Shown here in pieces: positions 5,844 through 62,782 of a DNA stretch of 64,000 nt. The stretch comes from Tsukamurella pulmonis (GTDB lineage Bacteria; Actinomycetota; Actinomycetes; Mycobacteriales; Mycobacteriaceae). The position numbers were made by a program, and so were the translations under genes. Location of the stretch: NCBI RefSeq assembly GCF_900103175.1, contig NZ_FNLF01000002.1, positions 3,362,136 to 3,426,135 on the forward strand. Reading direction: 5' to 3'. Every line of letters begins with the position of its first letter. The first letter of the stretch is position 1. Below the pieces are notes generated by a model. The model had not been told where the DNA came from and searched no databases. It was given only the letters and a program-made list of their open reading frames with translations.

Positions 5844-6332
5844 TCAGCCCGCGCGCCCGGCGCCTCCGCCCATCAGCGCGGCGGCGCCGTAGGAGGCGGC
5901 TACTCCTCCGGCCAGCATCGCGACGGTGCCGGGGAGCAGTTCCGTGGCCGGCCTCCTCACCCCGGCGCGAGTCAGCCGGGACGACGCCCACAGCCAGAAC
6001 GGCAGCACCGCCACCGGCGTCGTGGCGACGCCGGGCGCGTAGCCCTGGAACCGTGCGGCGATCGCGAGGTGCGAGAAGCCGTGCAGCCCGTAGGCGAGCA
6101 GGGCCGACTGGTACCACGCGGAACGACCGCCCGTGCGGACCCCGTCGAGCGCCGCCGCCCCGACCATCGCTCCCATGACGCCGATGGCTCGGCGCGCCCA
6201 TCCGTCCGAGACCGGGAGCCCGTGCGCCCGCGCCCACGGTCCGATCGTGAACCACTCCTCCGCGTCGTGGATCGCCCAGGCCGCGAACAGGCCCGCCGTA
6301 GCGAACACCGGTGTTTCGATACGTTCCGTCAT
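5844..6332 (-). CDS. HXXEE-motif membrane protein
   Basis: 162 residues from the ATG at 6332. The first helix carries H22-D-A-E-E26 (AIHDAEEWF), the signature of the HXXEE domain family, followed by about four further hydrophobic segments and a GLHGFSHL histidine pair. The family is uncharacterised, small and integral to the membrane; buried His/Glu suggests metal or proton chemistry, but nothing is proven. It is divergent from a tetR gene with only 23 bp between the start codons and a perfect operator-like palindrome across its own start, so it is very probably the TetR target. Confidence 0.8.
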   Translation of the reverse strand: MTERIETPVFATAGLFAAWAIHDAEEWFTIGPWARAHGLPVSDGWARRAIGVMGAMVGAAALDGVRTGGRSAWYQSALLAYGLHGFSHLAIAARFQGYAPGVATTPVAVLPFWLWASSRLTRAGVRRPATELLPGTVAMLAGGVAASYGAAALMGGGAGRAG

Positions 6333-6349
6333 GTAACGGAATCTATACT
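6324..6349. promoter_or_regulatory. Shared operator and divergent -10 region, HXXEE gene / tetR
   Basis: TTCCGT at 6324-6329 and ACGGAA at 6336-6341 form a perfect 6+6 inverted repeat with a 6-bp spacer that contains the HXXEE start codon. TATACT at 6344-6349 is a good -10 for tetR, with the GTG 6 nt later (leaderless). On the other strand TATAGA (6347-6342) is a -10 with the HXXEE ATG 9 nt later. One TetR-bound site would block both transcripts. Confidence 0.6.
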
Positions 6350-6355
6350 GAGGAC

Positions 6356-6955
6356 GTGCCCTCAGCAAGCCCCGGACGACCGCGCAGCGCCGCCGTCGAA
6401 CGCGCCATCGTCGACGCCGTCCTCGTCGAGTTGCAGACCGTCGGCTACCACGGCCTGACCATCGAGACGGTCGCGCGCCGGGCCGGCGTCGGCAGGCCGA
6501 CGATCTACCGCCGCTGGCCGGACCGCGACGCCCTCGTCGTCGGGGCACTGATCGCGACGGTCCCGCCCCTCACGCCCGCCACCAGCGACGATCCCGTCGC
6601 CGACCTTCGGGCGTCGGCGTCCGCCTTTCTCGCAGGGATCGCCCACTCCCCCGCGGCCCGCGCGGTCCTCGCCGTGCACGCGGTCGGTGCGCACCGCCCG
6701 GACCTCCGCGCTGCTCTCCACGAGCACTACCTCGCCCCGCGCGCGGAGGCCCTCGCCGGTACCATCGCCCGGGCCCGGACGGCGGGCGCGATCCGGCCCG
6801 AGGTCACCGACGACCAGGTGCGCGACCTCCTCTTCGGCCCCGCCGTCTACCGGTGGCTGATGCTGGGCGATGTGCCGGACGAGGGCGAGACCGGCGCGCT
6901 CCTCGACCTCGCCCTCGCCGCCGTCGGCCCCCGGAGCGACTCACCCCCTTCGTGA
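6356..6955 (+). CDS. TetR-family transcriptional regulator
   Basis: 199 residues from the GTG at 6356, which lies 6 nt after a TATACT -10 box and so is probably a leaderless start; a longer in-frame start would run through the operator. The N-terminal helix-turn-helix is clear at about 34-56 (LTIETVARRAGVGRPTIYRR), followed by WPDRDALVVGAL, typical of TetR domain helix 4. The C-terminal ligand domain (about 60-199) is variable, as usual. It probably represses itself and the divergent HXXEE membrane protein. Inducer unknown. Confidence 0.9.
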   Translation: MPSASPGRPRSAAVERAIVDAVLVELQTVGYHGLTIETVARRAGVGRPTIYRRWPDRDALVVGALIATVPPLTPATSDDPVADLRASASAFLAGIAHSPAARAVLAVHAVGAHRPDLRAALHEHYLAPRAEALAGTIARARTAGAIRPEVTDDQVRDLLFGPAVYRWLMLGDVPDEGETGALLDLALAAVGPRSDSPPS

Positions 6956-6980
6956 TCCGCCGTCGCCCTCCTACCCCGGC

Positions 6981-7427
6981 TCAGGGCACGTCGAACGCGC
7001 CGCTGCCCGGCGTGGGGACCAGCACCACCGCGACGGTGCCGGTGCTGACGAACCGTGCCGTGTAGGTGACACGGCCACTGCCCGTCGACGCGAGAGCCGA
7101 CTCGGGCACCTGCCCGAGCGTGAAGGGCTTGACGGTGACCGAGCCGCGGGCACCGGTGCGCAGGTTGCGGTAGTCGATCCGCACCAGCGACATGTACGAG
7201 TTGTAGCCGACGGAACTGTGCGCAGCGAGCCGTACCTCCCCGGGCCGACCGGTCGTGTCGGCCCCGATCCGGGTGGTGAACGGCTGGGGGATCCCCAGGC
7301 CCGCGACCTGGACGGCGGTCAGCGGGACCTGCGGGACGGACAGCGGCGCCGCTTGCGCCGGCGCCGCGCCCACCCCCGCGATCAGACCCGCCGTCGCGAT
7401 CGCCGTGACGAGTTTCTTCGTGTGCAT
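6981..7427 (-). CDS. Secreted hypothetical protein
   Basis: 148 residues with a GGAGGAGGAGA ribosome site before the ATG. The N-terminus (MHTKKLVTAIATAGLIAGVG, then AAPAQA) is a Sec signal peptide with an AQA cleavage site near residue 26. The mature part (about 122 residues) has no cysteines and is rich in V, T, G and S, suggesting a beta-sandwich. A run such as VTYTARFVSTGTVAVVLVP supports strand character. I do not recognise the family. It stands alone between the tetR gene and the membrane acyltransferase on the same strand. Confidence 0.7.
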   Translation of the reverse strand: MHTKKLVTAIATAGLIAGVGAAPAQAAPLSVPQVPLTAVQVAGLGIPQPFTTRIGADTTGRPGEVRLAAHSSVGYNSYMSLVRIDYRNLRTGARGSVTVKPFTLGQVPESALASTGSGRVTYTARFVSTGTVAVVLVPTPGSGAFDVP

Positions 7428-7523
7428 GTCTCCTCCTCCGGTCCGTCCCGCTCCGGCGGATGCCGTCGCGGGTCCTTCACGAAGGACGTCGGGGCCGGCG
7501 TGACGCCCGTTACACCCGCCCGT

Positions 7524-8729
7524 TCAGCGCTCGCGGTTCTCCAGCCGTCCCGGAAGCCGGCGCATCACGTGCTCCAGCGGGCCGTTGTCGCGGGTGCGGA
7601 ACCAGAGCGTCGCGACGAGGAACGCCGCCACCGTGAACGCGAGCCACATCGCCGTTCCGCGCCAATCGGTCTCGAGCCAGGCCTCCTGGCGGGATTCCTG
7701 CACGGTCTGCAGCAGCACGAAAACGGCGACGATGTGCAGGCAGTACAGCGACAACGACATCCGGCCGACACGGGCGGCCGGGGCGAGCAGCCGGGGCGCC
7801 GCCGCGCCCGCGAGCATGCACGCCGCGATCAGCAGCAGTGCGAAGCCGATGTTGCCGACGACCTCGAGCTGCGTCCCCGCATGCGGCTGGGCGCCGAGGA
7901 ACCGGTAACCGTCGCTCCACGCCCACCCCCAGGCGCCGCGCTCGGCGTCGGTCGCCGGCGGGCGGCCGCCCGCGGTGATCATGCCGCCGTAGCCGTCGAA
8001 GACGGTGCCCGACACCGAGGAGAGCGCCCACGCCAGCGGGTAGGCGAGCATCATCGTCGCGCCGACGGCCGCGAGGCGCATCGCGGTGGGTCCGGCGTCG
8101 AGGGCCAGGCGCCCGACCGCCACACCGGCGGCGAGGTAGGCGAACCAGATGAGGACCGGGTAGTCGCCCGTGGCGATCAGCTTCGCGAACTCGGCGTCGG
8201 GGTCGCCGAACCGGGTGATGATTGCGACCACCGCGGCGTTCGCGAAGGGGCCCACCAGGATCGCACCGGCCACCACCGCGACGAGCGCCCGCCTGCTCAG
8301 CGAGAAGAGCGGGAGCGAGAGCCAGAACAGCACCGCGTACGTGGCGAGAATGATGGAGATGTGCACACCGAGGGTGACCAGCACGCCCCCGACGAAGAAC
8401 AGGAACACCCCGCGGTAGACGATCTCCCGCCGCCGCGTCGCGAGGGCGTTCCCGGTGCGGCGGCGCGTCATCAGCCCCAGGCCGAGCCCGGAGAGCAGGA
8501 CGAACAGGGCGGAGGACCGCCCGACGACGACGCCGTCCCAGGTGGACGGTGACAGCAGCACGAACTCCTGCTTGCGGCCGACGTGGGCGTAGAACATGCC
8601 GAGCACGGCCAGGGCGCGGGCGACGTCGAGCCCGACCATCCGCGCGACGGAGCCTCGCCCGCCGAAGGAGGGCGCCGCGTGCACGTCGTCGGGACGGGCG
8701 GACACCGGAGGTGTTGCGATGGTACTCAT
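7524..8729 (-). CDS. Membrane acyltransferase-like protein (DUF418/DUF1624 type)
   Basis: 401 residues from the ATG at 8729 (MSTIATPPVSARP). The first helix reads GLDVARALAVLGMFYAH, the R-G-(F)D-x-x-R-x-x-A-hydrophobic start shared by DUF1624 heparan-glucosaminide acetyltransferase-like and DUF418 proteins. About ten hydrophobic segments follow, ending with SLSLYCLHIVAVFVL. Such proteins are thought to acylate surface glycans or lipids across the membrane; substrate unknown. It follows the multicopper oxidase gene on the same strand after 80 bp, so co-expression is possible. Confidence 0.7.
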   Translation of the reverse strand: MSTIATPPVSARPDDVHAAPSFGGRGSVARMVGLDVARALAVLGMFYAHVGRKQEFVLLSPSTWDGVVVGRSSALFVLLSGLGLGLMTRRRTGNALATRRREIVYRGVFLFFVGGVLVTLGVHISIILATYAVLFWLSLPLFSLSRRALVAVVAGAILVGPFANAAVVAIITRFGDPDAEFAKLIATGDYPVLIWFAYLAAGVAVGRLALDAGPTAMRLAAVGATMMLAYPLAWALSSVSGTVFDGYGGMITAGGRPPATDAERGAWGWAWSDGYRFLGAQPHAGTQLEVVGNIGFALLLIAACMLAGAAAPRLLAPAARVGRMSLSLYCLHIVAVFVLLQTVQESRQEAWLETDWRGTAMWLAFTVAAFLVATLWFRTRDNGPLEHVMRRLPGRLENRER

Positions 8730-8809
8730 GATGTTTCGCTTCCTGCGGGCGCCGTCGGACACCCGCGATGGGGACCCGGGACGGGTCCGTGACGGGAGGG
8801 AGGAGGGGA

Positions 8810-10449
8810 TCAATGACCACCGTGCGCCGCACCGGCGCCGGACGGACCGGCGGCGGGGCCGCCCGAAGGCGCTGCGGGCATGGGCATCCCGGGCATCGAC
8901 ATGCCGGGCATGTCCAACCGGGTCGGCGCGGTCCGCCCCTTCGCCGCCACCACGAACTGCCCCATCATGCCGCGGTCCTCGTGGAAGAGGAGGTGGCAGT
9001 GGTACATGTACGGCATCGTCAGGTCGGTGTAGTCGGTGAACCGCAGGGCGAGGGCGCAGCTCTCTCCCGGCGCGAGGTAGACGGTGTCCTTCCACCCGCG
9101 CAGGTGCGCCGGCGGCGTCCCGCCGTTGAACGAGGCGATCTGGAACTGGACGTCGTGGATGTGGAAGTTGTGCGGCCAGTTGTCCTTGTTGCGCACCGTC
9201 CACACCTCGGTGGTGTCGACGGTCGGTGCGAGGTCGATGCGGCTCATGTCCATCCGCTCGCCGTTGATCATGTACCACTGCAGGTCGAAGGACCGCGACG
9301 ACGGCGTCGGGGCGGTGGCGCCCGCGGCGAGCGGGACGATGGTGCTCAGTGTCCGGGGTACGGCGGTGCCGCGCGCCGCGAGGTCGTCGGCTCCGACGAG
9401 TTCGAGCACATCGAGGGTGTCGTCCTGCCCGTACTCGCGGGCGGTCTCACCGGAGATCCTGCCGCGCTGAGTGATCGGGTACGAGCGCAGTACGACCCGC
9501 TCGCCCGCGGCCATCGGGACCACGATCTCCACCCGCTCCCCCGGGCTGATCATCAGCCGGTCCGTCGCCACCGGTGCGGCGAGCAGGCCGCCGTCGGAGG
9601 CGATCATCTCGAACCGTCGGCCGTCGGCGAATCCCAGCTCGAAGCAGCGCGCCGATGCGCCGTTGAGCAGCCGTAGCCGCAGCCGGTCCCGACGCACCAG
9701 CAGGCTCGCCCCGGCGATGCCGTTGGTGATCACCGTCGGGCCGATCAGGCCGGTCTCGCCCGGCGCCGTCTCGTCCAGTTCGCCTGCGGGCGCGAACTTC
9801 CGGTCCTGGATGACCACGGGGACGTCGTCGACCCCGTACTCGGAGGGCAGCCCCAGGGCGTCCTGCGCGTCGTCGTCGAGGAGGAAGAACCCGGCGAGGC
9901 CGCGGTAGACGTGCTTCTCGGTCACGCCGTGCGGATGCGGGTGGTACCAGAGCGTCGCGGCCCGCTGCCGCACCGTCCATTCCGCCCGCCAGGTTCCGCC
10001 GGGCTCGACCATCTGGTGCGGTCCGCCGTCGGCGCGGGCCGGGACGTGCATCCCGTGCCAGTGCACGCTGGTGGCCTCGTCGAGGCCGTTGCGCACCGTC
10101 ACCGCGACCTTCTCGCCGTCGCGGGCGCGCAGCGTGGGGCCGAGGATCTCGCCGTTGAAGCCCCACGTCGCGCTGCGCCGCCCCGCGACATCTCCGCGGA
10201 ACCCGCGCGCGTGGCGAGGTCGAACCGGCGCACCCCGTCGGCGCCGACGACAGAGCGGGCCAGGGGCGGGATCGGCAGCGCCCGTCGTCCACCGGGGAGC
10301 TCGGCGGCCGAGGACGCCGACGGGGATGCCGACGCGCGACACCCGGCGACGGCGGACCCCACGAGCGGGGCGGCGACGAGGGCGGTGAGGAAGCGGCGGC
10401 GATTCGTGCCGGCGACGGCGTGCGGCCGCTCGGCGATGTCGTTGATCAT
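8810..10449 (-). pseudogene. Tat-exported multicopper oxidase (CueO-like) with a single-base frameshift
   Basis: The N-terminus (ATG at 10449, MINDIAERP) carries a twin-arginine signal NRRRFLTALV, then VGSAVAGCR, a possible lipobox. The reading frame is lost about 80 residues later in a run of four C at 10181-10184 (GGGG on the coding strand); one extra G restores SRGRRSATWGFNGEILGPT. Downstream the oxidase is intact: HWHGMHV, WYHPHPHG, NWPHNFHIHDVQF and YHCHLLFHED supply the type 1, 2 and 3 copper ligands, and the C-terminus is methionine-rich (MPGMSMPGMPMP), as in copper-oxidising CueO proteins. If the shift is a sequence error, it is an exported cuprous oxidase of about 546 residues; if real, it is inactivated. 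Confidence 0.8.
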
Positions 10450-12412: not shown

Positions 12413-13867
12413 TCAGCCCTGCCCCTCGCGCACCGCCTGCTCGATCCGCTCCCCGATCTGCTGATCGATGGCGCGCCAGTACTCGAAGGCGCGAGCCAGG
12501 ACGGGCTCGCTGACCCCGTCGAGCAGGTGTCCGGAGACGTTGGAGACCAGGCGGTCGCGCTGCGCGTCGCCCATCACCTCGCGCACCAGCGTGCCCGGTT
12601 GGGAGAAGTCGTCGTCCTCGCGGTGCGCGACGTACGCCGCCCGCACGATCTCGCCGTCGGCCGCCCACTGCGGCTCCGGCTGTCCGGGGTAGTCGGCCGC
12701 CGGGCCGCCCTTCGAGTTCGGCGCGTACACCGGGTCCCGCACGGGGTCGATGCGCATGGCGCCGTCCTTGGAGTAGCTGCGCACCTCGTTGTGCGGCCGG
12801 TTCACCGGGATCTGCTTGTAATTGGCGCCGAGCCGGGCGCGGTGCGCATCGGCGTAGGCGAAGACCCGGCCGAGCAGCATCCGGTCCGGGCTCAGTCCGA
12901 TACCGGGGACCAGGTTGCTGGGCTCGAACGCCGCCTGCTCGATCTGCGCGTGGTTGTCGGTCGGGTTGGTGTGCAACGTCATCCGGCCGACCTCGCGGAG
13001 CGGGTAGTCGGCGTGCGGCCAGACCTTGGTCAGGTCGAACGGGTTGAACCGGTAGTCCGCGGCGTCGTCGAAGGGCATCAGCTGCACCTTGAGCGTCCAA
13101 CTCGGGTGCTCGCCACGCGCGATCGCCTCGAACAGGTCGCGGACGTGGAAGTCCCCGTCGGCGCCGGCGAGGCGGTCGGCCTCGTCCTGGGTGAGCGTCT
13201 CGATGCCCTGGTCGGCGATGAAGTGGTACTTGACCCAGTGCTTGACGCCGTCCGCGTTGACCCACAGGTAGGTGTGCGATCCGTAGCCGTTCATGTGCCG
13301 CCACGAGCGCGGGATGCCGCGGTCGCCCATGAGCCAGGTGACCTGGTGGGCGGACTCGGGCGAGAGGGTCCAGAAGTCCCACTGCATGTCGTGATCGCGA
13401 AGGTTGTTGTCGGCGCGGCGCTTCTGCGATCGGATGAAGTGCTGGAACTTCATCGGGTCCTTGATGAAGAACACCGGGGTGTTGTTGCCCACGAGGTCGT
13501 ACACGCCCTGGGTGGTGTAGAACTTCAGGGCGAAACCGCGCGGGTCGCGCCAGGTGTCGGGGCTGCCGCGCTCACCCGCCACCGTCGAGAAGCGCGCCAT
13601 CATCTCGGTCTTGGCGCCGGGCGCGAACACCTCCGCACACGTGAACGCGGTGACGTCGCCGGTGGTCTCGAAGGTGCCGAAGGCGCCGCTGCCCTTGGCG
13701 TGCGGCTGGCGCTCGGGGATCCGCTCGCGATTGAACTGCGCCATCTGCTCGATCAGGTAGTGATCGTGCAGGACGATCGGGCCCGCGGCGCCGACTGTCA
13801 ACGACCGCTCGTCGCTCCCGGCGGGTGCACCCGAATCCGTGGTGGTGAAGTTCGCGTTCTCGGACAT
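12413..13867 (-). CDS. katA: Monofunctional heme catalase, small-subunit (KatA) type
   Basis: 484 residues, the usual small-subunit length, from the ATG at 13867 ([10 protein letters not shown]). The distal heme histidine is H56 ([16 protein letters not shown]), the active-site asparagine lies in [15 protein letters not shown], and the proximal heme tyrosine in [19 protein letters not shown]-binding residues of the clade follow. Reaction: 2 H2O2 to O2 and 2 H2O in the cytoplasm. It is separate from the larger KatE-type catalase at 56-58 kb, which belongs to the SigF island. It ends 39 bp from the divergently placed response regulator start. I see no PerR- or FurA-type gene next to it. Confidence 0.93.
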
Positions 13868-51424: not shown

Positions 51425-53464
51425 TCAGACGCTGCGTCGCGGGATCTCCCGGAACCAGCTGTCCGCGAACACCCGGCGCATCCCACGGTCGCCGTCGTCC
51501 TCATAGGCGTCCAGTTCCGCGGTGACCACGAAGGTGCTCCGCGTACTCGTCAGAACGGTGCGGGTGCGTACCTCGATGTTCCAGTCGTCGCGCCGGAAGC
51601 GACGCAGCGTGCGGGTCTCGCCACGAGCCGAGGTCACATCGTCACGACGGAACCCGAACCATTCAGTGGTCGCCCTCGTGACGGCAGTGCCGGTCTCGTC
51701 GATGACGTACTCCCCGTCGTCGTCGGCGATCTCCAGCGTGGTGCCTCCGGTGGCCAGATCGTTGGTGGTGCGCCAGTGGTGCTCTCCCGGCGACACCCGT
51801 GTCAGCGCGAGCGGGGCGGCCGCGGTCGGCGGGCCGAAGGTACGCAGCAGTTCGTCCTCGGCGCGGGGCGATCGCGCGGGGACCCGCAGCTCGCTCTCAC
51901 GGGTGTGCACCGTCATGACCACCGGCTCGGGCGGCGGCCACACCAGCGGGAAGTAGGAGGTCGACAAGGAGAGCCGGATCCTGTGCCCGGCCGGGACGAT
52001 CTGAGCGATCCCGTTCAGTTCCATACTGATCCGCATCGATCGACCGACGTCCATCGACTCGGGGCGGGCGCTGCCGTTCCGGTGTGTCAGGTTGACGACG
52101 CCGTACGTCACGCGGGTCGCCTCTCCCGTGGGCGCGACGTCGGAGAGCCGTGCGGCGACGAGCGCGACGGGCCTGTCGACCTCGAGCTGCAACTCCAGCT
52201 CGGGCCTGCCGAGTATCTCCACGGGGCTCTCGAGGGGCGCCGTATCGAAGACCAGGGCACCGCCGTCCTCGTTGCGCTGATCGGTCGGCAGGTCCGGGGT
52301 GGCCGCGTAGGAGGCCCACTTCCCCGCCGCCATACCGACACTGAGCGGCGAGCTCACGCTGAACGCCCCGGCCGGTAATGCGGAAGCCCCCGGTGCGACG
52401 AGCCCCTCGGCGGCGAGTTCGTAGGTACGGGGTCCGATCGCCGGTGCGGGCCAACGCTCCTCCGCGACCCAGCGGCCCGGCCGAGCCTCGTAGGCGGGGT
52501 TGGGCTCGACGCTGTCCTGCATCCAGACACGCAACATCGGCTCATCCATCACCCCGTTCGGGACCCCCTTGAGCCAGTGGTCCCACCAGCGCACCACTTC
52601 GTCGAGGAAGTCGATCGGCGGCCCCGGCACCCCGAGGTGGGGGTACTTGTGGCCCCAGGGACCGATGAGCCCCTTGCGCGGCACGTCGAGGTGCTCCATC
52701 AAGCGGAAGATCGCGTTCGTATAGCCGTCCGCCCACCCGCCGACCGCGAACACGGGGCACTCGATCGCGGAGTAGTCCTCGTTCACCGATGCGCGCAACC
52801 AGTAGTCGTCGCGGTGCTGGTGCTCGAGCCAGTTCTCGATCCACAGGCCGCTTCCGCGCAGCCGCTCCAGCCACATCTGACGCCACCGGTCGCCGACGAT
52901 CGCAGGATCGGGCGGGAGACTGGTACACGCGAACATGACGGTCGCTTCCGAGAGATTGTCCGACAATAGGCATCCGCCCATGTAGTGCATGTTGTCGACG
53001 TACAGGTCCTCCGTCGCCGAAGCCGAGATGATCGCCCGGAGGGCCGGAGGGCGTCGCGCTGCGACATGGAGGCTGTTGAATCCGCCCCACGAGATCCCCA
53101 TCATCCCGACATTCCCATCGCACCAGGGCTGCTCGGCCAGCCAGGCGATCACCTCGCAGGCGTCCTCCTGCTCCACCGGAAGGTACTCATCGCGCAGCAC
53201 TCCGTCCGAGTCGCCGCTCCCCCGCAGATCCACGCGGACACAGGCGTAGCCGTGCCCCGCGATGTACGGGTGGTTCAGCGCATCCCGGGCCCGTGTGTCG
53301 TCGCGTTTGCGGTACGGCAGGTATTCCAGCACCGCCGGCACCGGGGCCGCCTCGGCGTCGACAGGCAGCCAGATACGGGCCGCCAGCCGGGTCCCGTCCG
53401 AGAGCGGGATGAAGACGTTCTCGATCGATATTGTGGAACAGGGGAATTCATCGACTGTGCGCAC
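51425..53464 (-). CDS. CocE/NonD-family alpha/beta hydrolase (X-Pro dipeptidyl-peptidase type)
   Basis: 679 residues with three regions: the S15 hydrolase (about 1-310), a helical cap, and the C-terminal jelly-roll (from about 360, SVGMAAGKWASYAATPDLPT onward). Catalytic Ser in GMMGISWGGFNSL, Asp in GGWADGYTNAIF, His in GPWGHKYPH. RVDLRGSGDSDG is the usual strand-turn. Family members cleave esters, amides or proline dipeptides (e.g. cocaine esterase). No signal peptide. Last gene of the hemerythrin-KatE operon, 21 bp after the ATP-grasp gene, so it may release or trim the ligase product. Confidence 0.9.
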   Translation of the reverse strand: MRTVDEFPCSTISIENVFIPLSDGTRLAARIWLPVDAEAAPVPAVLEYLPYRKRDDTRARDALNHPYIAGHGYACVRVDLRGSGDSDGVLRDEYLPVEQEDACEVIAWLAEQPWCDGNVGMMGISWGGFNSLHVAARRPPALRAIISASATEDLYVDNMHYMGGCLLSDNLSEATVMFACTSLPPDPAIVGDRWRQMWLERLRGSGLWIENWLEHQHRDDYWLRASVNEDYSAIECPVFAVGGWADGYTNAIFRLMEHLDVPRKGLIGPWGHKYPHLGVPGPPIDFLDEVVRWWDHWLKGVPNGVMDEPMLRVWMQDSVEPNPAYEARPGRWVAEERWPAPAIGPRTYELAAEGLVAPGASALPAGAFSVSSPLSVGMAAGKWASYAATPDLPTDQRNEDGGALVFDTAPLESPVEILGRPELELQLEVDRPVALVAARLSDVAPTGEATRVTYGVVNLTHRNGSARPESMDVGRSMRISMELNGIAQIVPAGHRIRLSLSTSYFPLVWPPPEPVVMTVHTRESELRVPARSPRAEDELLRTFGPPTAAAPLALTRVSPGEHHWRTTNDLATGGTTLEIADDDGEYVIDETGTAVTRATTEWFGFRRDDVTSARGETRTLRRFRRDDWNIEVRTRTVLTSTRSTFVVTAELDAYEDDGDRGMRRVFADSWFREIPRRSV

Positions 53465-53485
53465 TCTGCTCCTCTCTGTGTGCGA

Positions 53486-54805
53486 TCACGCCGTTCGCCG
53501 CGGGGCGAACCGCTCCGCCGCGCCGTGGTCGATCTGGAACGGTAGGAAGCCCTCCGCCCGCGCGGCCGCCTCGGCGAGTCCGTCGGCATCGGCGGCGCCG
53601 AGGTAGACGGTGGCGAGGACGTAGCGGTACGGGTCCTGGTTGGGTAGCTCGGAGAGCCTGTCACCCGGGGCGACATCCAACTGCACCACCGTGTCCGGCA
53701 ATTCCTCGCGGAGCCGAGCGATGTCCTCCGGGGTGGGGACCGCCCGGACCACGCCATCGGAGTGGACACCGATCAGATGCTTCGTCGCAGCGCCGTACCT
53801 GCCCGCGCCCGCCTCGGGGTGGGGGCGCCTGCCCAGCGCGACGGCTGTGGCGTAGGCGTGATTCGAAGTACCGTCGACCTTCACGAAGAGTTCACTGTGA
53901 GACTGCGAGATCCGGGTGTTCACCTCGATCATGCTGATCCGGTCCACCCTCTCGTCCCACATGAACTCGGCGTTCGCGCAACCGTTGTCGAATCCGGCCT
54001 CCCGCAACACCGACTCCGTCGCGGCCAGCATCCGCTCCTGGACGTCGGAGGGTACCGAGCGGGCCGGATAGGACAGCCGATCGAAGCTGTGCCCATCCTC
54101 GCTGCGCTGCATGTCGAAAAGACCGTGCACCACGAACTCGCCGCGGAACATGGACACCTCTGGTGCGGCCTGGATCCCCTCGATGATCTCCTCCGCGATG
54201 CACGACGTGCCGGTCACGCCCCGTACGGCCTCGGGCACGTCGATGGTGCTGAGTACTTCGTCGAAGGCGTCTCCGACCGTGCGGATCTCCCGCCTGATCT
54301 CATCGAGCGCGGCCTCGAAACCGGCCCGATCGCGGACCTCGAAGCCGAGCTGCGAGGAGTGCGATTTCACCGGCTTGACCCAGTACGGGAACGGGAGATC
54401 CACACCGGATTTCTCGATCGCGGGATCGAACGGGTCGAACGCGGCGAATCGCGGTACGCACTCCGGGATCGCCCGGCGCTGGATCAATCGGGACCAGTAC
54501 TTGTGCTCGAAGGAGAGCACGCTCTCCACCGACGGCGCGGGGAGCGACCGCTCGGCGGCCAGTACCGGCGCGAGGACGCTCGTCGGGAAGTCCCAGTGAG
54601 CGATGATCGCGTCGACCGTGCCGTCGAAGTCGTCCAATTCCACTCGCGCGCGACGGAGCAGATCCTGGAAGTCGAGATGCTCTGCCCGCGTGAGTGAGTC
54701 GACGTCCAACAGCGAATGGAAGCGGACGTCGCTCCCTACGTCGACGGTTCTCAATTCGTCGCGCTGCTGGCGGGTCAGGCCGGGTACGAAGATGTTCATC
54801 ACCAT
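53486..54805 (-). CDS. ATP-grasp ligase-like protein
   Basis: 439 residues from ATG 54805 (MVMNIFVPG; an ATG two codons later is equally possible). The pre-ATP-grasp region (1-110) precedes FEHKYWSRLIQRRAIPECVP. The ATP loop lysine lies in PFPYWVKPVKSHSSQLGFEV, and the metal-binding Glu/Asn pair in ISMIEVNTRISQSHSELF. This is the carbamoyl-phosphate-synthase-large-subunit-like group that includes PylC and L-amino-acid ligases, which join a carboxylate to an amine using ATP. The substrate is unknown. It lies between two hydrolase genes in the stress operon. Confidence 0.88.
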   Translation of the reverse strand: MVMNIFVPGLTRQQRDELRTVDVGSDVRFHSLLDVDSLTRAEHLDFQDLLRRARVELDDFDGTVDAIIAHWDFPTSVLAPVLAAERSLPAPSVESVLSFEHKYWSRLIQRRAIPECVPRFAAFDPFDPAIEKSGVDLPFPYWVKPVKSHSSQLGFEVRDRAGFEAALDEIRREIRTVGDAFDEVLSTIDVPEAVRGVTGTSCIAEEIIEGIQAAPEVSMFRGEFVVHGLFDMQRSEDGHSFDRLSYPARSVPSDVQERMLAATESVLREAGFDNGCANAEFMWDERVDRISMIEVNTRISQSHSELFVKVDGTSNHAYATAVALGRRPHPEAGAGRYGAATKHLIGVHSDGVVRAVPTPEDIARLREELPDTVVQLDVAPGDRLSELPNQDPYRYVLATVYLGAADADGLAEAAARAEGFLPFQIDHGAAERFAPRRTA

Positions 54806-54834
54806 GGCGGTCGGGTTCCCCGTACGTCCGCTCG

Positions 54835-55779
54835 TCAAACCAGGAAGGACCCCGCGTTGCGCAGGTCCGCGGTCGCGGATGCGGCGATCCCCAGGCCGCG
54901 CAGGAAGTCGACGATCCGCCTCCGCGCCGCGGCCCCCTCCGGGACGGCGTGCATGATCCAGTTGTGGAACATTCGCGGGGACTCGAGCAGCGTCACCGCG
55001 ACCCCCGCGGTGGTCAGCACGCCGTGCAGCCGTTCCGCGTCGGGGTTGAGGATGTCCCGGGTACCCGAGCACACCATGGTGGGCGGAAGGTCGGACAGGT
55101 CCGCCGCGAACGGGTCCGTCCCGGCGAGCCCTCCCCGTACCCCGGCGGCGTACCACCGCCCGGCCATCCGGAGGCCACGGATCGCGAGTTCGGGGTCGAA
55201 CGGCTCGATCCGCGCGGATCGACTGTCCGTCACCTCCAGGTCGATCCAGGGCGAGCTCAGGAGAAGGGCGTCGGGCCGGCGAGCACCACCGGCGCACGCG
55301 GTCCGGGCCAGATCGAGGGCGAGGCGGCCGCCTGCCGAGTCACCGGAAAGGAGCACGGGGCCGTCGTGTCCGGCGACGGTGCCGTCGTACACCCGCCGCA
55401 CGCTCTCGTCGATCGCGCGGCGGTCCGCGACGGGGCACAGCGGGTACAGCGGCGCGACGACCGATGCTCCGGTGGTCAGCGCGAGCCACCGCAGGAACCG
55501 CCAGTGATGGTGTTCCGGCTGTTCCACGAACGCTCCTCCGTGCAGATGGAGGACGCGCGTCCCGAAGGGTTCCGGCGGGGTGATACTCAAGCACGGCACC
55601 CCGCCGACGGTGGCCGAGCCGACCTCGGCGCCGCGCCTGATCCACCACGGCGGCATCGCCGTCGACACGCGCTGGCGGGCGGGGAGACCCGCGATCATCG
55701 CCTCGGGGTCGCGGTAGAACCGCTTGCTGCGTCGTGCACGTAAGGAGGCACTCACGCACCGTGCGCGAACCGAGATCAC
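54835..55779 (-). CDS. Alpha/beta hydrolase (Abhydrolase_3/HSL type)
   Basis: 314 residues from GTG 55779, preceded by GAGGAGGGC; the start overlaps the stop of the small upstream gene (GTGA). LHLHGGAFVEQPEHH is the HGG oxyanion motif, LLSGDSAGGRLALDL carries the nucleophile Ser, RDILNPDAERL the Asp and PRMFHNW the His. Family: hormone-sensitive-lipase-like esterases for short acyl chains. Fifth gene of the SigF operon; it is placed next to the ATP-grasp gene (29-bp gap), so a joint pathway is likely. Confidence 0.9.
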   Translation of the reverse strand: MISVRARCVSASLRARRSKRFYRDPEAMIAGLPARQRVSTAMPPWWIRRGAEVGSATVGGVPCLSITPPEPFGTRVLHLHGGAFVEQPEHHHWRFLRWLALTTGASVVAPLYPLCPVADRRAIDESVRRVYDGTVAGHDGPVLLSGDSAGGRLALDLARTACAGGARRPDALLLSSPWIDLEVTDSRSARIEPFDPELAIRGLRMAGRWYAAGVRGGLAGTDPFAADLSDLPPTMVCSGTRDILNPDAERLHGVLTTAGVAVTLLESPRMFHNWIMHAVPEGAAARRRIVDFLRGLGIAASATADLRNAGSFLV

Positions 55780-56009
55780 CGTCGGCCCTCCTCTCGCTCC
55801 TCCTGTGCGAGCCGCTCCTCCAGCGACGGTCCCTCCCGTTGCTCGGGACCGGTGATGCCGGCTCGATCACTCTCCGCCCAGCCGTCGGGGGGATCGAGTG
55901 CCGCGGCCCACGGGTCGTGCTCGAGCAGGTCCTCATCCAGCGCCTCAGCGCCGCCCGGGATGGCGGCGCTCCCGTCGTCGGGCGACATGTCATCGGGGTG
56001 CGAGCGCAT
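55776..56009 (-). CDS. Small acidic protein, DUF5709-like
   Basis: 77 residues from ATG 56009, strongly acidic and hydrophilic (ALDEDLLEHDPWAAALDPPD, GPEQREGPSLEERLAQEERE). The D-P-P-D-x-W and REG-x-SLxxRLAxE patterns resemble the actinobacterial DUF5709 family, though I am not certain. Start follows the katE stop by 5 bp; stop overlaps the hydrolase start by 4 bp. Probable intrinsically disordered stress protein. Confidence 0.6.
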   Translation of the reverse strand: MRSHPDDMSPDDGSAAIPGGAEALDEDLLEHDPWAAALDPPDGWAESDRAGITGPEQREGPSLEERLAQEEREEGRR

Positions 56010-56014
56010 CGTGA

Positions 56015-58105
56015 TCACTCCTTCGGAGGGTTGGCGCCACCGACCGCGGTACGGGGCCAATGGCGCAGTTCCGCACAGGCGCGGAGGAACGCGCCGGCGT
56101 CCATGTCAGAGGAGAGGACGAAGCATCCGTCGTCGGTTCTCCCGAACAGCCCGGTCCGGCGCAGCAGTGGTTCGCAATGCTGTCCGAGTCCCAGGAACTT
56201 GCTGTGGTGGAAGGCGTCCGTGATGAAGTCCTGCGCCGCGGGATCGAAGGCCAGTTCCTCCGCGCCCGCCATCGAGGTGAGGATCGCCACCGCGTCGAAG
56301 AGCACCGACGGGGCGCCGGCGAGCTGGGCGTCGACCGCGAGCGGATCGCCATCGGCGTCCGCCACTCCACCCACTCGCGGCGCGACGAGCACAACCGCGG
56401 CGCCGGCGTCGCGCGCCCGGTGCCGCAGCCCGTCGACGAGCGCGCGCTCGACACCATCGGTGACCAGGACGCCGAGGACCCGCCCGGCGAACGTCCCCGG
56501 CGGGTTGCGGAGCATGCTCACCGACGGCGACTCCGGCAGGTCGGTCCGCACGGGCACTGCGCAGGCCGAGGCCCCGGGGAGCTCGAGCCCCAGGCCGGCG
56601 GCGATCCGGGCGGCGAGCGCGTCGTCGACGTTGCGGAGGTTCGCGACCATCCGGGTCCTGATCGCCGGCTCCACCACTTTGCTCAGCTCGAAAACGTAGG
56701 CGGCGACGATGTGATCCTGTTCGACCGGGGTCTGGCTGTGCCAGAACACCGCGGCCTGGCTGTAGTGATCGGCGAAGGACTCGGGGCGCAACCGCGTCTT
56801 CGCCCCCTCCGCCGGTTCGGCGAAAGTCGTCAGTGCCTGCGCGCCCGCGCGCTCACGCGGCCCGCCCTGATCGCTCGAGTTCGGCTCGTAGTTGATCGGG
56901 CCGGAGGGCACCTCGTGCTGCATGTGGCCGTCCCGGTGGAAGAAGGCCATCGGACACCGGGCGCGGTTGACCGGGAGGTGGGTGAAGTTCGGTCCGCCCA
57001 ACCGCGAGAGCTGCGTGTCGAGGTAGGAGAAGTTCCGGCCCTGCAAGAGCGGATCCTCGGTGAACCCGATGCCGGGCACGACGTTCTGCGTGCAGAACGC
57101 CACCTGCTCGGTCTCGGCGAAATCGTTGTCGACCGTCCGGTCGAGTGTGAGCCTGCCGATCACCTGCAGTGGCACGCTCTCCTCCGGAACGATCTTGGTC
57201 GGGTCGAGGACGTCGAAGGGCAGAGCGTCCGCAGTGGCCTGGTCGAACAGCTGCACCGCCAAGTCCCATTGCGGGTACTCCCCCGACGAGAGCGCGTTCC
57301 ACAGGTCGCGGCGGTGGAAGTCCGGGTCGGCACCGTTGATCTTGACCGCCTCGTCCCAGAGCACCGATTGGCACCCGAGCACGGGCTTCCAGTGGAATTT
57401 CACGTACGTCGATGCACCGTCGTCGGCGAGGAATCGGAACGTGTGCACCCCGAAGCCCTCCATGAACCGGAACGAGCGCGGTATCGCACGATCCGACATC
57501 TGCCACAGAGTCATGTGCGTCGATTCCGGGAGACAGGAGACGAAGTCCCAGTACGTGTCGTGCGCTGACTGCGCCTGCGGGAAACCCCGGTCCGGATCCT
57601 CCTTGACCGCGTGCACCAGGTCGGGGAACTTCATCGCGTCCTGGATGAAGAAGACGGGGATGTTGTTGCCCACCAGATCCCAGTTGCCCTCGCGCGTGTA
57701 GAACTTCACGGCGAAACCGCGAACGTCACGCGCCAGATCGAACGATCCTGCCCGGCCGGCGACGGTGGAGAAACGGACGAACACCTCCGTCTGCCTCCCC
57801 ACCTCACCGAACAGGTCCGCCGCGGTGATCTCGGTGAGCGATCGGGTGCACTCGAAGACCCCGTGCGCACCGTATCCGCGCGCGTGCACCACCCGCTCGG
57901 GGATGCGCTCGTGATCGAACCGGAAGATCTTGTCCCGTAGGACGAAGTCCTCCAGCAACGCCGGCCCGCGTGCGCCGGCCCGCAACGAGTTCTGGTTGTC
58001 GGGTACCGGCGCCCCCTGCGAGGTGGTCAGGCCCTCCGCCGCCACCTGGTGCGGCTCACCGCCGCGGCCGACCCCGGTCACCGCCTCGATCTGTTCGTCC
58101 GCCAT
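56015..58105 (-). CDS. katE: Large-subunit catalase (HPII/KatE type)
   Basis: 696 residues from ATG 58105, preceded by GAGGAGG. The heme domain has His in [17 protein letters not shown], Asn in [20 protein letters not shown] and the proximal Tyr in [19 protein letters not shown]. The extra C-terminal flavodoxin/class I glutamine-amidotransferase-like domain (about 545-696, [20 protein letters not shown]) is the mark of large catalases. These are very stable and typical of stationary phase and general stress. It is the third gene of the SigF operon, whereas the KatA-type enzyme at 12-14 kb stands apart. Confidence 0.95.
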
Positions 58106-58134
58106 GGTCCGCCTCCTCGGCTCGTGGTCGATGT

Positions 58135-58443
58135 TCACCGCGTCCGTCGTCCGCTGCCCCTGCGATAGCGCCGCAGGTACCGCCGTTCCTCCGCAGGGCT
58201 CAGTTGTTCGCCGAGCACCGGATCACGCTGCCCCCGGTCGTCCCATGCGTTCCTGCGGTGAGTGAGGGAGACCGCGGCCATGGCCGCGCCGCCGACGACG
58301 ATCAGCGCGATCCCCCCAGCGATCGCGAACCAGGCCCACGGCGCGCCGATCGCCGTCGCGCTGATCCCGATGGCGAGGACACCTATTCCGGTCAGGACGC
58401 CGATGAATCCGACACCACCCCACTGCCGTGCGACATGATGCAT
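58135..58443 (-). CDS. Small hypothetical membrane protein
   Basis: 102 residues with two transmembrane helices (about 9-32, [20 protein letters not shown]; 36-60, [20 protein letters not shown]) and a basic cytoplasmic tail ([18 protein letters not shown]). The ATG shares one base with the hemerythrin stop (TGATG) and the katE start follows 29 nt later. Function unknown; its operon position suggests a stress role. Confidence 0.7.
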
Positions 58444-59009
58444 CAGTGCGCCCCCTGTCCCAGGCGCACCGCGACCGCATCACGGGCGCGATCGAGCATC
58501 GCCGCGAACGGCCCGACGAGCAGGTTGGCAGATGCGGACTCCGTCCCCGGGTGCGGATGCGTGGGAGCGACGGCCTCGATCACCCGGACGGCATCGGCCA
58601 TACGGGCGGCCTCGTCGTCGTCGAGTTCGTTGCGCAGTGCGATGAACTCGTCGCGCTCCTCGCGCTCGATATGCCCCTCGACGATCTCGCGCAGGGCCTC
58701 GAGCTTCGCATCGAACTCCGCGGACTGCATGCCCAGGCCTTCGAGCTCGGCGAGAAGGCGTTTGACGGCGCGCTCCTCCGACAGCCGCTCGCCCACAACC
58801 TTCGGGCCGGACGTGATCGAGGACCGGGCCCGGGGATGCACCACTACTTCCTCGGCGGCCTCGTGCACGGCGAGCAGCCTGCGCAGTTCGAGGAACGTTT
58901 CGTCGCGTTCCTCTGCCTCACCCTCGCGGACGCGGTCGAAGAGTTGCAGAATCCGCTGGTGCTGGAACGCGAGTTCGTCGATGAAGGTGTACGGGTTGAT
59001 GAACGTCAC
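58443..59009 (-). CDS. Hemerythrin HHE-domain protein
   Basis: 188 residues from GTG 59009, preceded by GAGGA. A four-helix bundle with the metal-ligand pattern HQRILQLFDRV, H-E in LLAVHEAAEEVVVHPRA, and EGHIEREERDEFIALRNE fits a non-heme diiron hemerythrin-like domain. Such proteins bind O2, NO or peroxide, or sense oxidants. It is the first gene of the seven-gene operon, 55 nt downstream of a SigF-type promoter, and its stop is fused to the next start. Confidence 0.85.
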   Translation of the reverse strand: MTFINPYTFIDELAFQHQRILQLFDRVREGEAEERDETFLELRRLLAVHEAAEEVVVHPRARSSITSGPKVVGERLSEERAVKRLLAELEGLGMQSAEFDAKLEALREIVEGHIEREERDEFIALRNELDDDEAARMADAVRVIEAVAPTHPHPGTESASANLLVGPFAAMLDRARDAVAVRLGQGAH

Positions 59010-59064
59010 GGTGATCGTCCTCTCTGTCCGATGTGTCCGCCTATGGCGGAGCTGCAGCAGAGGT

Positions 59065-59089
59065 CTACCCCGTAGGAGCGTCGTCAAAC
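59065..59089 (-). promoter_or_regulatory. SigF-type promoter of the hemerythrin-katE operon
   Basis: On the minus strand, GTTT at 59089-59086, 15-nt spacer, GGGTAG at 59070-59065. It overlaps the very end of the STAS gene. Confidence 0.75.
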
Positions 59090-59410
59090 GTCGACGGCGC
59101 CGCTGAATCCGGTGACGACGAGCGCGCGCGACGCGGCGGCGCTCGCGGCGGTGACCGTCACCGTCGCGCCGCTCCGGGGCACGACCCGGCGCCACACGTA
59201 CGCGGCCGCGGCGATGCTCATGAAGTCCACGCCGCCGAGATCCAGTTCGACGCGGGCCCCGGCCCGCAGTGCCCCGTCGACCGCTTCGACGAGCGCGGGC
59301 AGGGTGACGGCGTCGAGGTCGCCCTCGGGCACCACTTCGGTGCACGAGGACGATGCCCGCGACGCTGTGATCCGGAAGACGTCGGGGTGTTCGATGACGG
59401 ATGACGACAT
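59084..59410 (-). CDS. STAS-domain protein (anti-sigma-factor antagonist-like)
   Basis: 108 residues from ATG 59410, preceded by GGAGG. The STAS fold is recognisable in VVPEGDLDAVTLPALVEAVD and VELDLGGVDFMSIAAAAYVW. At the usual Asp-Ser phosphorylation site (D-F-x-D-S-x-G) the sequence reads DFMSIAAAA, so the standard kinase-target serine appears shifted or lost. It lies downstream of sigF, 169 bp from its stop, and could release SigF from the anti-sigma factor or sense a different partner. Confidence 0.8.
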   Translation of the reverse strand: MSSSVIEHPDVFRITASRASSSCTEVVPEGDLDAVTLPALVEAVDGALRAGARVELDLGGVDFMSIAAAAYVWRRVVPRSGATVTVTAASAAASRALVVTGFSGAVDV

Positions 59411-59579: not shown

Positions 59580-60401
59580 TCAGTCGGCGACGTGGGCGCG
59601 CAACCGGTCCAGCGCGCGGCCGAGGATCCGCGAGACGTGCATCTGTGAGATCCCCAGGCGTGCGGCGATCTCCGACTGCGTCATCGACCGGTAGAACCGC
59701 AGAGCGAGCACCGTCCGCTCACGCTCGTCGAGTCGCTCGACCGCGGGGCGCAACGACGCGTATTCGTCGACGAGTTCGAAGCCCGGGTCGTTCTCCCCGA
59801 TCCGCTCCGCCGGCGCGGACCGGTCGTCGTCGCCCCCGACCGGTTGATCGATCGATCTGGCCCGGTAGCCGTTCCCGGCCAGCGCTGCCTCCCGGACCTC
59901 GTCCAGGCCGACCTCCATGCGCTCCGCGAGTTCTCGGTACGTCGGCGTACGGCCGAGGTCCTGTGCCGCCTCCGCTATCGCTGCGTTCATGCGCAGGTGG
60001 ATCTCCTGCATGCGACGCGGGACCCGGGTGGCCCATCCCGTGTCACGGAAGTGCCTCCGCAGACCACCCAACATGGTGGGCACGGCGAAGGACAGGAAAT
60101 CGGTCCCCTTGTCCGGATCGAAGCGATCGACCGCATTGACCAGGCCTACGCGGGCCACCTGAACGAGATCGTCGTAGGGCTCGCCGCGCCCGACGAATCG
60201 CCGGGCGAGATTCTCTGCGAGCGGAAGGCACCGGGTGATGACCTCGTCCCTGGCCGCGGCCGCGCGCTCGCCGCCGTCACGTCGCCCGGCCTGCAGGATC
60301 ACCGCCACGTCGGCGTAGTCATCACTCGAGGGCCGCGGCTCCCGAGGTTGCGGCGGCACTACACGGCGCTCCGCGCGGACTGGAACGACACGCTTGTCCA
60401 C
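59580..60401 (-). CDS. sigF: Stress-response RNA polymerase sigma factor SigF
   Basis: 273 residues from GTG 60401 (a TTG one codon earlier is also in frame). Sigma-70 group 3 of the SigB/SigF type. Region 2 is PLAENLARRFVGRGEPYDDL, VQVARVGLVNAVDRFDPDKG; region 3 ATRVPRRMQEIHLRMNAAI; region 4 RERTVLALRFYRSMTQSEIA with SQMHVSRILGRALDRLRAHV. These are close to M. tuberculosis SigF. It overlaps the rsbW end by 43 nt, coupling both. Recognises GTTT-N15/17-GGGTA, a form seen six times in this island. Confidence 0.92.
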   Translation of the reverse strand: MDKRVVPVRAERRVVPPQPREPRPSSDDYADVAVILQAGRRDGGERAAAARDEVITRCLPLAENLARRFVGRGEPYDDLVQVARVGLVNAVDRFDPDKGTDFLSFAVPTMLGGLRRHFRDTGWATRVPRRMQEIHLRMNAAIAEAAQDLGRTPTYRELAERMEVGLDEVREAALAGNGYRARSIDQPVGGDDDRSAPAERIGENDPGFELVDEYASLRPAVERLDERERTVLALRFYRSMTQSEIAARLGISQMHVSRILGRALDRLRAHVAD

Positions 60402-60769
60402 CAACCGCCGTCCGGGGACCGGGTACGGCCGACCTCGAGCCCCTCGGTGAGCGTCGTCAGTACGCGCCAGCCGAAGCCGGATCGGTCCGGCGCACGATCG
60501 GTCCGGGTGTGCGTGGCGACCGTCGTGGTCAGCCCCTCCGCACCGGTGTCGACCCTGATCTCGACCCTCGCGTCCGGCAGCGCGTCCGCGATCAACTCGG
60601 TGCAGACCTGATCGATCGCCAACCCGAGGTCCGCCACCCGATCGATGTCGAGGTCGAGCATGATCGCCAGTGCTTCGGGGACCGCCCGTACCACCGGGAG
60701 GTACACGAGATCGGCAGGAACGCGCAGGTCGACAGGGTGAGTCGGGGTGGTGCGTGCCATGTGCGCCAT
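60359..60769 (-). CDS. rsbW: Anti-sigma factor RsbW/UsfX
   Basis: 136 residues from ATG 60769 (ATG 60760 also possible). HATPase/GHKL-like: VADLGLAIDQVCTELIADAL holds the N-box region, RSGFGWRVLTTLTEGLEV the G-box. It strongly resembles mycobacterial UsfX (VCTxLIxSALPDAxL). The classical N-box Asn is replaced, as in UsfX, so kinase activity may be weak. Binds SigF and blocks it until an antagonist intervenes. Middle gene of chaB-rsbW-sigF. Confidence 0.88.
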   Translation of the reverse strand: MAHMARTTPTHPVDLRVPADLVYLPVVRAVPEALAIMLDLDIDRVADLGLAIDQVCTELIADALPDARVEIRVDTGAEGLTTTVATHTRTDRAPDRSGFGWRVLTTLTEGLEVGRTRSPDGGWWTSVSFQSARSAV

Positions 60770-60899
60770 GAGGCTCCGTTCATCGATGGGCGCCTTCCGT
60801 GCTAACACGCTCGCCCCTCCCGTGTACAGCCGCGCATCTCCCCGGTACCGGGGCGCCACCGCGGCACGGGCTCCCGCCCGCGGTGGTCCGCACCGACCA

Positions 60900-61310
60900 T
60901 CAGTCATCACTCCTCGCGCGCTCGTTGGCGCGTTCGATCGCATCGATCAACTCCGACTTCCGCATCGTCGAGCGCCCACGGATCTCCAGCCGACGGGCGA
61001 CGTCGACGAGATGCGCCTTCGTCGCGTTCACGTCGACGCCCTCGTGAGTCGGCTCGTCGCGACGCCTGCCGCGGCGCTCCGACGTGCCCCGCTTCCCACC
61101 CGGCTTGCGCTCCCAGCGATCGCCGACGCGCTCGTAGCCGCGCTTGAGCGCCGCGTACGCGACCCGGTGCGCTCGCTCCTCGTCGCCGTACTCGTCGAGC
61201 GCGGAATCGTGAGCCTTCGCGAACGTCCGCTGCGCCTTGGCACTCGAGCGTCGCAGGGTACCGGGCAGCTCGTCCGTCGTGGCGGTTCCCCGCTCCGTGG
61301 TCTTCGGCAT
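60900..61310 (-). CDS. chaB: ChaB-family protein
   Basis: 136 residues from ATG 61310 (MPKTTERGTATTDELPGTL). The ChaB domain (about 12-75) shows LRRSSAKAQRTFAKAHDSAL and RVAYAALKRGYERVGDRWER. The C-terminal part (about 100-136, DVNATKAHLVDVARRLEIRG, MRKSELIDAIERAN) is a Rho-N/SAP-like helical DNA- or RNA-binding module. In mycobacteria chaB heads the usfX-sigF operon with a SigF-dependent promoter, and the same is seen here. Confidence 0.9.
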   Translation of the reverse strand: MPKTTERGTATTDELPGTLRRSSAKAQRTFAKAHDSALDEYGDEERAHRVAYAALKRGYERVGDRWERKPGGKRGTSERRGRRRDEPTHEGVDVNATKAHLVDVARRLEIRGRSTMRKSELIDAIERANERARSDD

Positions 61311-62290: not shown

Positions 62291-62782
62291 TCACCGGTTG
62301 CCGCGGTCGCGCGAGTCCCTCCCCGCCGCGAGGCGCCGCCGGTACTCGTCCGCGGCTTCGTCGAGCACGTCATCGGTCAGCCGACCGACGGGGAGGACCT
62401 CTCTGACCAGTGGTTCGTGATCAGGTCCGCGGGCGACACGGCGCCCCGTCAGCACCCAGGCGAACCGGTCCGCGACATCGAGTTCGCGATACGTACAGAC
62501 CCGGCGCACGATCCACGTCCGAGCCGGCAGGCGCCACCACAGCTCGGGGGTCAGCGTGGCCACCGACAGCCCCGGGAGGACGTACTCGGCCTCGTAGTCC
62601 CGGCTCGGCCCGTGCCGCCGATCGGCCGCCGGCCCCTCGGAGTACCGGACGTAGAGCGTGGGACCGGTCCGTACCGTACGGACGAGTTCGGCCAGCGACC
62701 GAATCAGGGGCACGTCGTCGTCGCGACCGTGCCAGCGGAACAAGGGCGCGCTGCACTCGTCCGTCACTCGGCTGCACTCCAT
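62291..62782 (-). CDS. DUF6098-type hypothetical protein
   Basis: 163 residues from ATG 62782, preceded by GGAGGGCGGAG. It contains LAELVRTVRTGPTLYVRYSE (about 31-50), DYEAEYVLPGLSVATLTPEL and WWRLPARTWIVRRVCTYREL, a pattern known from actinobacterial DUF6098 proteins. No membrane segment. It has its own SigF-type promoter and is convergent with the SDR gene, 1 bp apart. Function unknown. Confidence 0.75.
   Translation of the reverse strand: MECSRVTDECSAPLFRWHGRDDDVPLIRSLAELVRTVRTGPTLYVRYSEGPAADRRHGPSRDYEAEYVLPGLSVATLTPELWWRLPARTWIVRRVCTYRELDVADRFAWVLTGRRVARGPDHEPLVREVLPVGRLTDDVLDEAADEYRRRLAAGRDSRDRGNR

Follow-up and report, generated by a model that had tools for sequence, protein, structure and literature searches.

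The 64-kb stretch of the Tsukamurella pulmonis genome analyzed here (the window) encodes an ATP-grasp ligase (GRASP; 439 amino acids; 53486..54805, minus strand) and, directly downstream, a CocE/NonD hydrolase of the S15/PepX type (679 amino acids; 51425..53464, minus). This gene pair recurs in other bacterial genera, in many loci close to stress genes. In the window the pair ends a run of seven minus-strand genes that includes hemerythrin and KatE and lies beside a SigF gene, and we describe the locus as a general-stress regulon with an uncharacterized metabolic cassette. On balance, and with modest confidence, we favor the reading that this is a stress cassette of the SigF type, its ligase making a peptide-like compound and its hydrolases recycling it.

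To describe the pairing we used 80 loci: 30 from a family sample, 32 from genome_contigs (Arthrobacter, Brevibacterium, Halomonadaceae and others), 12 from a phylum sample, five from relatives, and the window. In 70 of the 80, a CocE gene lies within 2.5 kb of the ligase in the same orientation, the 12 phylum loci having been selected for an adjacent pair; given the tblastn cut-offs, this and the other neighbor counts are lower bounds for divergent genes. Among 101 relatives, six genomes code for a strong ATP-grasp homologue (the window's, G035, G039, G060, G081 and G085), and all six have CocE directly downstream. The remaining ATP-grasp matches in these relatives were weak (at most 24.3 bits), and in our reading they are mostly cross-matches of the carbamoyl-phosphate-synthase type. 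In the family sample the ligase is present in 34 of 401 genomes and nine of 31 genera, with CocE within 2.5 kb in 29 of the 30 loci fetched, a set that excludes four loci already in other samples. An even phylum sample yielded the ligase in 23 of 396 genomes. CocE is adjacent in 13 of these, on a different contig in four, and undetected at E 1e-150 in six. Five of those six (G119, G146, G256, G340 and G435) are small genomes (1.6-1.9 Mb) from one actinobacterial family with distant, lower-scoring ligases.

CocE lies within 1 kb of the ligase in 23 of the 32 genome_contigs loci. Two loci end at contig edges (L028 and L034, the latter retaining a CocE fragment), and in seven (L012, L015, L022, L026, L029, L031 and L033; ligases of 48-51% identity) no CocE was found within 2.5 kb. 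The ligase of L031 is split over two frames. Most matches in this group (24 of 32) are Halomonadaceae-type or Marinobacter, a proportion that comes from an exact-peptide-pattern search and not from a survey; we keep a halophile-osmolyte reading as a lead only. Outside these samples, the annotation of a Paraburkholderia plasmid with an ATP-grasp gene (34% identity) shows no CocE gene alongside.

The trees of the two proteins are congruent (patristic r 0.93, 39 pairs), and the pair stays together in L095 and L096, two of the 12 phylum loci, where the order is flipped to CocE then ligase. The CocE triad S125/D246/H272, placed by alignment with cocaine esterase, is invariant in 39 of 39 sequences, as are the ligase residues K144, E205, E280, E294, N296 and R298; E280, E294, N296 and R298 presumably serve Mg and ATP, as in the superfamily. 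Because the pairing of a maker with a cutter persists, flipped order included, the ligase and CocE may act on the same or related bonds. No further conserved pathway gene was found beside the pair when 38 loci and the window were clustered, using gene calls and selected annotation. One actinobacterial locus, L092 from a genome of about 7.8 Mb, has genes for a MoxR ATPase and for a vWA-domain protein (6039-8872) immediately upstream of the pair in the same orientation.

We counted as a stress gene any heme catalase, Mn-catalase, SigF-type sigma or hemerythrin gene within 10 kb. Such a gene lies near the ligase in 18 of 30 family loci and four of five relative loci, and in 34 of all 80 with the window included. 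None of 40 control regions codes for a catalase, SigF-type sigma or hemerythrin (Fisher 4e-9 against 18 of 30), these controls being regions of about 20 kb rather than matched genes, and many of the loci coming from close relatives. The controls came from 24 family genomes (23 of the family sample and the window's own) and lay about 100 kb or more from the pair, or further along the same contigs. With these results the sets recur: the initial annotation had regarded an absence of the ATP-grasp and hydrolase genes beside katE or hemerythrin in related genomes as decisive against its proposal, and the opposite was found. Five of the eight g28 loci (L145-L149) encode hemerythrin, Mn-catalase, the ligase and CocE on a single strand, with the ligase motif at -35, and in g24, g25 and g21 SigF directly precedes the ligase. 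Nine of the 10 positive genome_contigs loci carry Mn-catalase, all of them from halomonads. An Mn-catalase is encoded in 15 of the 25 genomes behind the genome_contigs loci, with one or two matches each, and nine of these have it no more than 10 kb from the pair; a search of 18 other genomes gave one in G085 alone, beside the pair. Of 25 genomes, 21 code for a SigB/F/G sigma factor, and in seven its gene is at most about 10 kb from the pair (G000, G035, G039, G060, G195, G205 and G509). Genes for the end-joining repair proteins Ku/LigD are neighbors in seven of the 32 genome_contigs loci (L009, L010, L020, L021, L025, L028 and L034, from Brevibacterium and halomonads).

Promoter motifs may also link the pair to SigF. 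The motif GTTT-N15-GGGTAG given in the initial annotation is present at 59065..59089 (minus), 77 bp upstream of the hemerythrin start codon. A SigF-type motif likewise precedes the hemerythrin gene in two genomes of the same genus, G002 (N15) and G008 (N16). A second SigF-like motif, GTTT-N16-GGGAAC, lies inside the run at 54815..54840 (minus), where it overlaps the HSL stop codon 35 bp before the ATP-grasp start; it is a GGGAA variant whereas the first is of the exact GGGTA type, and it makes the single promoter once proposed for all seven genes doubtful. Between 51000 and 60400 no sigma-70-type site was detected, and the only terminator-like site (54135, minus) falls inside the ATP-grasp gene, one site being below the shuffle mean of 2.1. 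In 23 of 31 loci (the 30 family loci and the window) a GTTT starts at -40 to -30 of the ATP-grasp start, compared with 17 of the 483 starts of other genes in those 30 loci of the family (Fisher 1e-22, which overstates independence since the genomes are related). Since the second motif at 54840 coincides with this recurrent position, the window probably has at least two transcription start points, with ligase and CocE under their own.

The starts that bear GTTT differ in another respect. A Shine-Dalgarno-like word precedes one of the 23, compared with seven of the eight remaining ligase starts and 239 of the 483 control starts, and this rarity suggests that the ligase mRNA could be leaderless or nearly so. 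Leaderless transcripts are put at 24% in M. smegmatis (PMC6448022). The full motif GTTT-N14..17-GGGTA/GGGAA occurs within 250 bp in exact form in 10 of the 30 family loci and with one mismatch in 14. Six loci have an exact motif 91-120 bp upstream of the ligase, behind a SigF gene (L071-L073 and L169-L171). Among 23 other actinobacterial loci, in one of which (L100) the start position was guessed, GTTT-N14..17-GGGTA is exact in five (L071-L073, L092 at -55 and L093 at -62). SigF control would fit both the promoter position and the neighboring SigF genes in part of the loci, regulation throughout being read from motif and position. Three gammaproteobacterial loci (L021 9846, L025 9861 and L032 9840) also have GTTT...GGGTAA words, 140-161 bp upstream of the ligase, which may be due to chance.

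The gene before the ligase in the window codes for an HSL-type alpha/beta hydrolase (Abhydrolase_3; 314 amino acids; 54835..55779, minus). It matches PF07859 (E 3.5e-29, 102.5 versus 25 bits), contains HGG and GDSAG motifs, and falls outside the named NCBIfam HSL subfamilies and LipY (best 94.7 versus 450 bits). An HSL gene is within 1.5 kb of the ligase in nine of the 80 loci, window included, and L074 provides a further case with HSL between CocE and Mn-catalase. The window's order, HSL-ligase-CocE, is repeated in L168 (g9). Three g23 loci (L152, L153 and L158) have KatE-CocE-HSL-ligase on one strand, two others (L173 and L174) have CocE-HSL-ligase with a SigF homologue in the locus, and HSL is also near the pair in L161 and L172. 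In a FastTree phylogeny the HSL proteins form two subtypes, both linked to the pair. Directly behind KatE in L152, L153 and L158, CocE and HSL are of one clade and the ligase is of the other; because the CocE and ligase clades differ, this mosaic cassette points to an exchange of parts. In five other family HSL loci (L110-L114) no other gene of the query set was found.

Two descriptions of the gene set were discarded. No other examined locus has all seven genes (tblastn E 1e-10), so the seven are not one conserved operon; of the gene-set conservation expected initially, what stands is the recurrence of HSL, ATP-grasp and CocE together, with KatE in three genomes, and of the pair behind hemerythrin and Mn-catalase in five; the seven are not a fixed set. 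L074 and the family sample overturned the notion that HSL is confined to the katE operon and has nothing to do with the ligase.

The reaction we would assign to the ligase comes from its relatives. It matches PF13535 (E 7.6e-10, 39.1 versus 27 bits), and the best match of its profile among solved structures is the L-amino acid ligase BL00235 (PDB 3vot; E 4.8e-7). On these two matches, ATP-driven amide formation via an acyl phosphate is the likeliest chemistry, and a relation of the window enzyme to L-amino acid ligases is predicted. A single-sequence comparison with 3vot reaches only E 0.041, and in the alignment 3vot does not retain the window family's E-x-N-x-R motif. The CocE protein shares the S15 domain, the triad and PepX_C with cocaine esterase and the CocE/NonD family (Peptidase_S15 and PepX_C matches; TIGR00976, 239.5 versus 66.3 bits) and differs in its C-terminal stretch of about 140 residues, which has no Pfam match at E<=0.001.

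Taken together, the locus may be viewed as having two parts. Hemerythrin, the membrane protein, KatE and the acidic protein would handle O2 and peroxide, and the second part would be the cassette, consisting of the ligase, the CocE/NonD serine hydrolase and, in a subset that includes the window genome, the HSL-type hydrolase. Under stress, SigF would turn the cassette on, the ligase would join a carboxylate to an amine via an acyl phosphate to give a peptide-like compound, and the hydrolases would cut the same or a related amide or ester so that the compound is trimmed or recycled. The initial interpretation survives here in the recurrence of hydrolases and ligase with stress genes and in SigF control in some loci. 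Its single promoter and fixed set find no support, and its product and its coupling of O2/H2O2 control to the chemistry stay conjectural. A broader proposal we advance only tentatively: a stress-metabolite pathway, in Actinomycetota and halophilic Gammaproteobacteria, in which a stress sigma factor would direct an ATP-grasp ligase to make a peptide-like protectant that one or two dedicated serine hydrolases recycle, its genes being linked to those of the catalase and the hemerythrin that each lineage uses.

Several observations weigh against the recycled-metabolite reading. CocE is missing within 2.5 kb in 10 of the 80 loci, the cassette is patchy in its own genus (a strong ligase match in one of 16 genomes), and the loci are not independent, g23 and g28 dominating the family sample. 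The reaction of an enzyme cannot be read from ATP-grasp membership alone. Of 43 genomes searched for a heme catalase, only three (G000, G195 and G509) have one within 10 kb of the pair. The full SigF motif is not general: six of the 30 family loci have two or more mismatches, five of them HSL-bearing (L161, L168 and L172-L174), and the 23 actinobacterial loci include four with one mismatch and 14 with two or three, the latter a level easily reached by shuffles. The -10 words vary as well (GGGAA, GGTTA, GGGAT and GGGCA). In G002, of the same genus, the first 74-76 residues of HSL are fused in frame to the last 107 of CocE (L075 8791-9327), which looks like what a deletion of about 3.8 kb across the cassette would leave.

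Alternatively, an unrelated metabolic cassette could have settled in SigF islands and be merely co-regulated with catalase and hemerythrin, an explanation we consider rather unlikely. In its favor, G008, of the same genus, has a SigF-hemerythrin-membrane protein-KatE-HSL set (HSL at 58% identity) without the ligase pair. The stress link is also weaker outside the family, with a stress gene near the ligase in 10 of 32 genome_contigs loci and one of 12 phylum loci; none lies within 10 kb in the other 22 and 11, or in 12 of 30 family loci, and the annotated neighbors are diverse. Against this explanation, the cassette is found again and again, in several genera, with catalases of two unrelated families, with hemerythrin and with SigF, compared with none of 40 controls, and a GTTT element occupies a fixed position before the ligase. 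The pairing of a ligase with a hydrolase would also suit protein editing: under stress, amino acids would be attached to a protein by the ATP-grasp enzyme and taken off again by the hydrolase, in the manner of RimK and its protease. Neither clustering nor selected annotations placed a conserved precursor or transporter gene beside the pair. We regard this as improbable: the solved structure that the ligase profile matches best is an L-amino acid ligase working on small molecules, and the substrates of CocE/S15 enzymes are small esters and N-terminal amides, not protein tails. More improbable yet is salvage or detoxification, with the hydrolases opening a stress-damaged or foreign amide or ester and the ligase re-joining the useful half. 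In L074 the pair follows, on one strand, genes for an AbgT transporter and for an M20 peptidase, which would suit salvage and gives a hint of substrate type, but among the annotated loci this context is found in that one only.

A stress-made solute has a precedent in the NAGGN osmolyte cluster, where an ATP-grasp ligase is encoded with a peptidase and the synthetase is a GNAT-ATP-grasp fusion. The window cassette shares that general idea, with a ligase that lacks a GNAT domain, and unlike in the NAGGN cluster no asparagine-synthase-like or M42 gene was seen among the selected annotated neighbors. SigF-controlled hemerythrin and catalases are already known (PMC4694148, PMC4295536). The former describes an M. 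smegmatis sigF mutant with reduced expression of hemerythrin MSMEG_6212, Mn-catalase MSMEG_6213, catalase MSMEG_6232 and an anti-sigma antagonist. The SigF-dependent hemerythrin and Mn-catalase have adjacent locus tags and GTTT-N15/16-GGGTA or GGGAA motifs, and MSMEG_6232 is listed with GTTT-N16-GGGAA. This regulon thus shares motif types, hemerythrin, catalases and an anti-sigma antagonist with the window, whereas the text of PMC4694148 never mentions ATP-grasp. MsmHr, a hemerythrin-like protein, is tied to a SigF-dependent H2O2 response (PMC4295536), a hemerythrin-SigF link like the one predicted in the window; the passages on it mention no ligase or hydrolase genes.

In one open-access library no paper was found that treats the ligase and CocE together as a stress unit, which is weak evidence of absence from print, and none joining CocE NonD with ATP-grasp or ATP-grasp with the SigF regulon, the slashed form "CocE/NonD" being unsearchable. 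If the recycled-metabolite reading is right, the SigF/SigB-type stress response of some actinobacteria, and perhaps of some halophiles, has an unnoticed small-molecule branch, in which one ligase makes the product and partner hydrolases remove it. What the uncharacterized metabolic genes of general stress regulons produce then becomes testable, and a two-gene unit small enough for expression in E. coli offers a route to a new amide-forming reaction.

The remaining genes of the run agree with the initial layout. Seven minus-strand open reading frames, all open, are packed into 51425..59009, and a recheck gave the same gene number, coordinates and strand, with gaps from hemerythrin to CocE of -1, 29, 5, -4, 29 and 21 bp. 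An alternative GTG start for KatE at 58138 would change the gap after the membrane protein from 29 to -4 bp. Library matches supported all but one of the family labels, the exception being the "DUF5709-like" small acidic protein (77 residues, 22 D/E and 7 K/R; 55776..56009, minus), for which neither Pfam nor NCBIfam gave a match at E<=0.1. The hemerythrin HHE protein (188 residues, GTG start; 58443..59009, minus; PF01814 E 2.9e-13) is not of the PA2171 ribosome-binding type (NF053874, 34 versus a cut-off of 190 bits). The small membrane-type protein (102 residues; 58135..58443, minus) is kept in two same-genus genomes and reaches no Pfam or NCBIfam family above the curated cut-off. KatE is a long heme catalase (696 residues; 56015..58105, minus; PF00199 E 1.4e-171, PF06628 and PF18011) that scores below the Catalase HPII equivalog NF008422 (875.8 versus 1102 bits) with the long catalase domains still present.

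Upstream, on the same strand, are a STAS anti-sigma-factor antagonist (59084..59410; PF13466 E 4.2e-9), SigF itself (59580..60404; SigB/SigF/SigG family, TIGR02980 271.7 versus 234.35 bits) and a gene we take, from its position, to be RsbW-type anti-sigma (60359..60859), which is also beside SigF in G002, G008 and other genomes. By gene content the window thus contains a putative SigF-type island running from the RsbW-type gene through SigF and STAS to the seven genes. The exact motif GTTT-N14..17-GGGTA occurs seven times in the 64 kb (mononucleotide-shuffle mean 0.57, maximum 4, 200 shuffles), six times in 49.8-63.0 kb (shuffle mean 0.115, maximum 2) and once in the first 49.8 kb; since these counts exceed the shuffle means and maxima, the cluster is more than chance would give. 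Between 49841 and 62890 several motifs precede other genes (a CBS protein at 49915, a small open reading frame at 50695, 60900-61310 minus and 62291-62782 minus), and six exact motifs in 13 kb would make a SigF regulon island reaching beyond the seven genes. A low-affinity iron permease family protein (PF04120; 50892-51362, plus) is convergent with CocE and is found in the same place in G002. The window also encodes a second heme catalase (12440-13852, minus) about 40% identical to KatE, and such a match is present in 12 of the 16 genomes of the genus.

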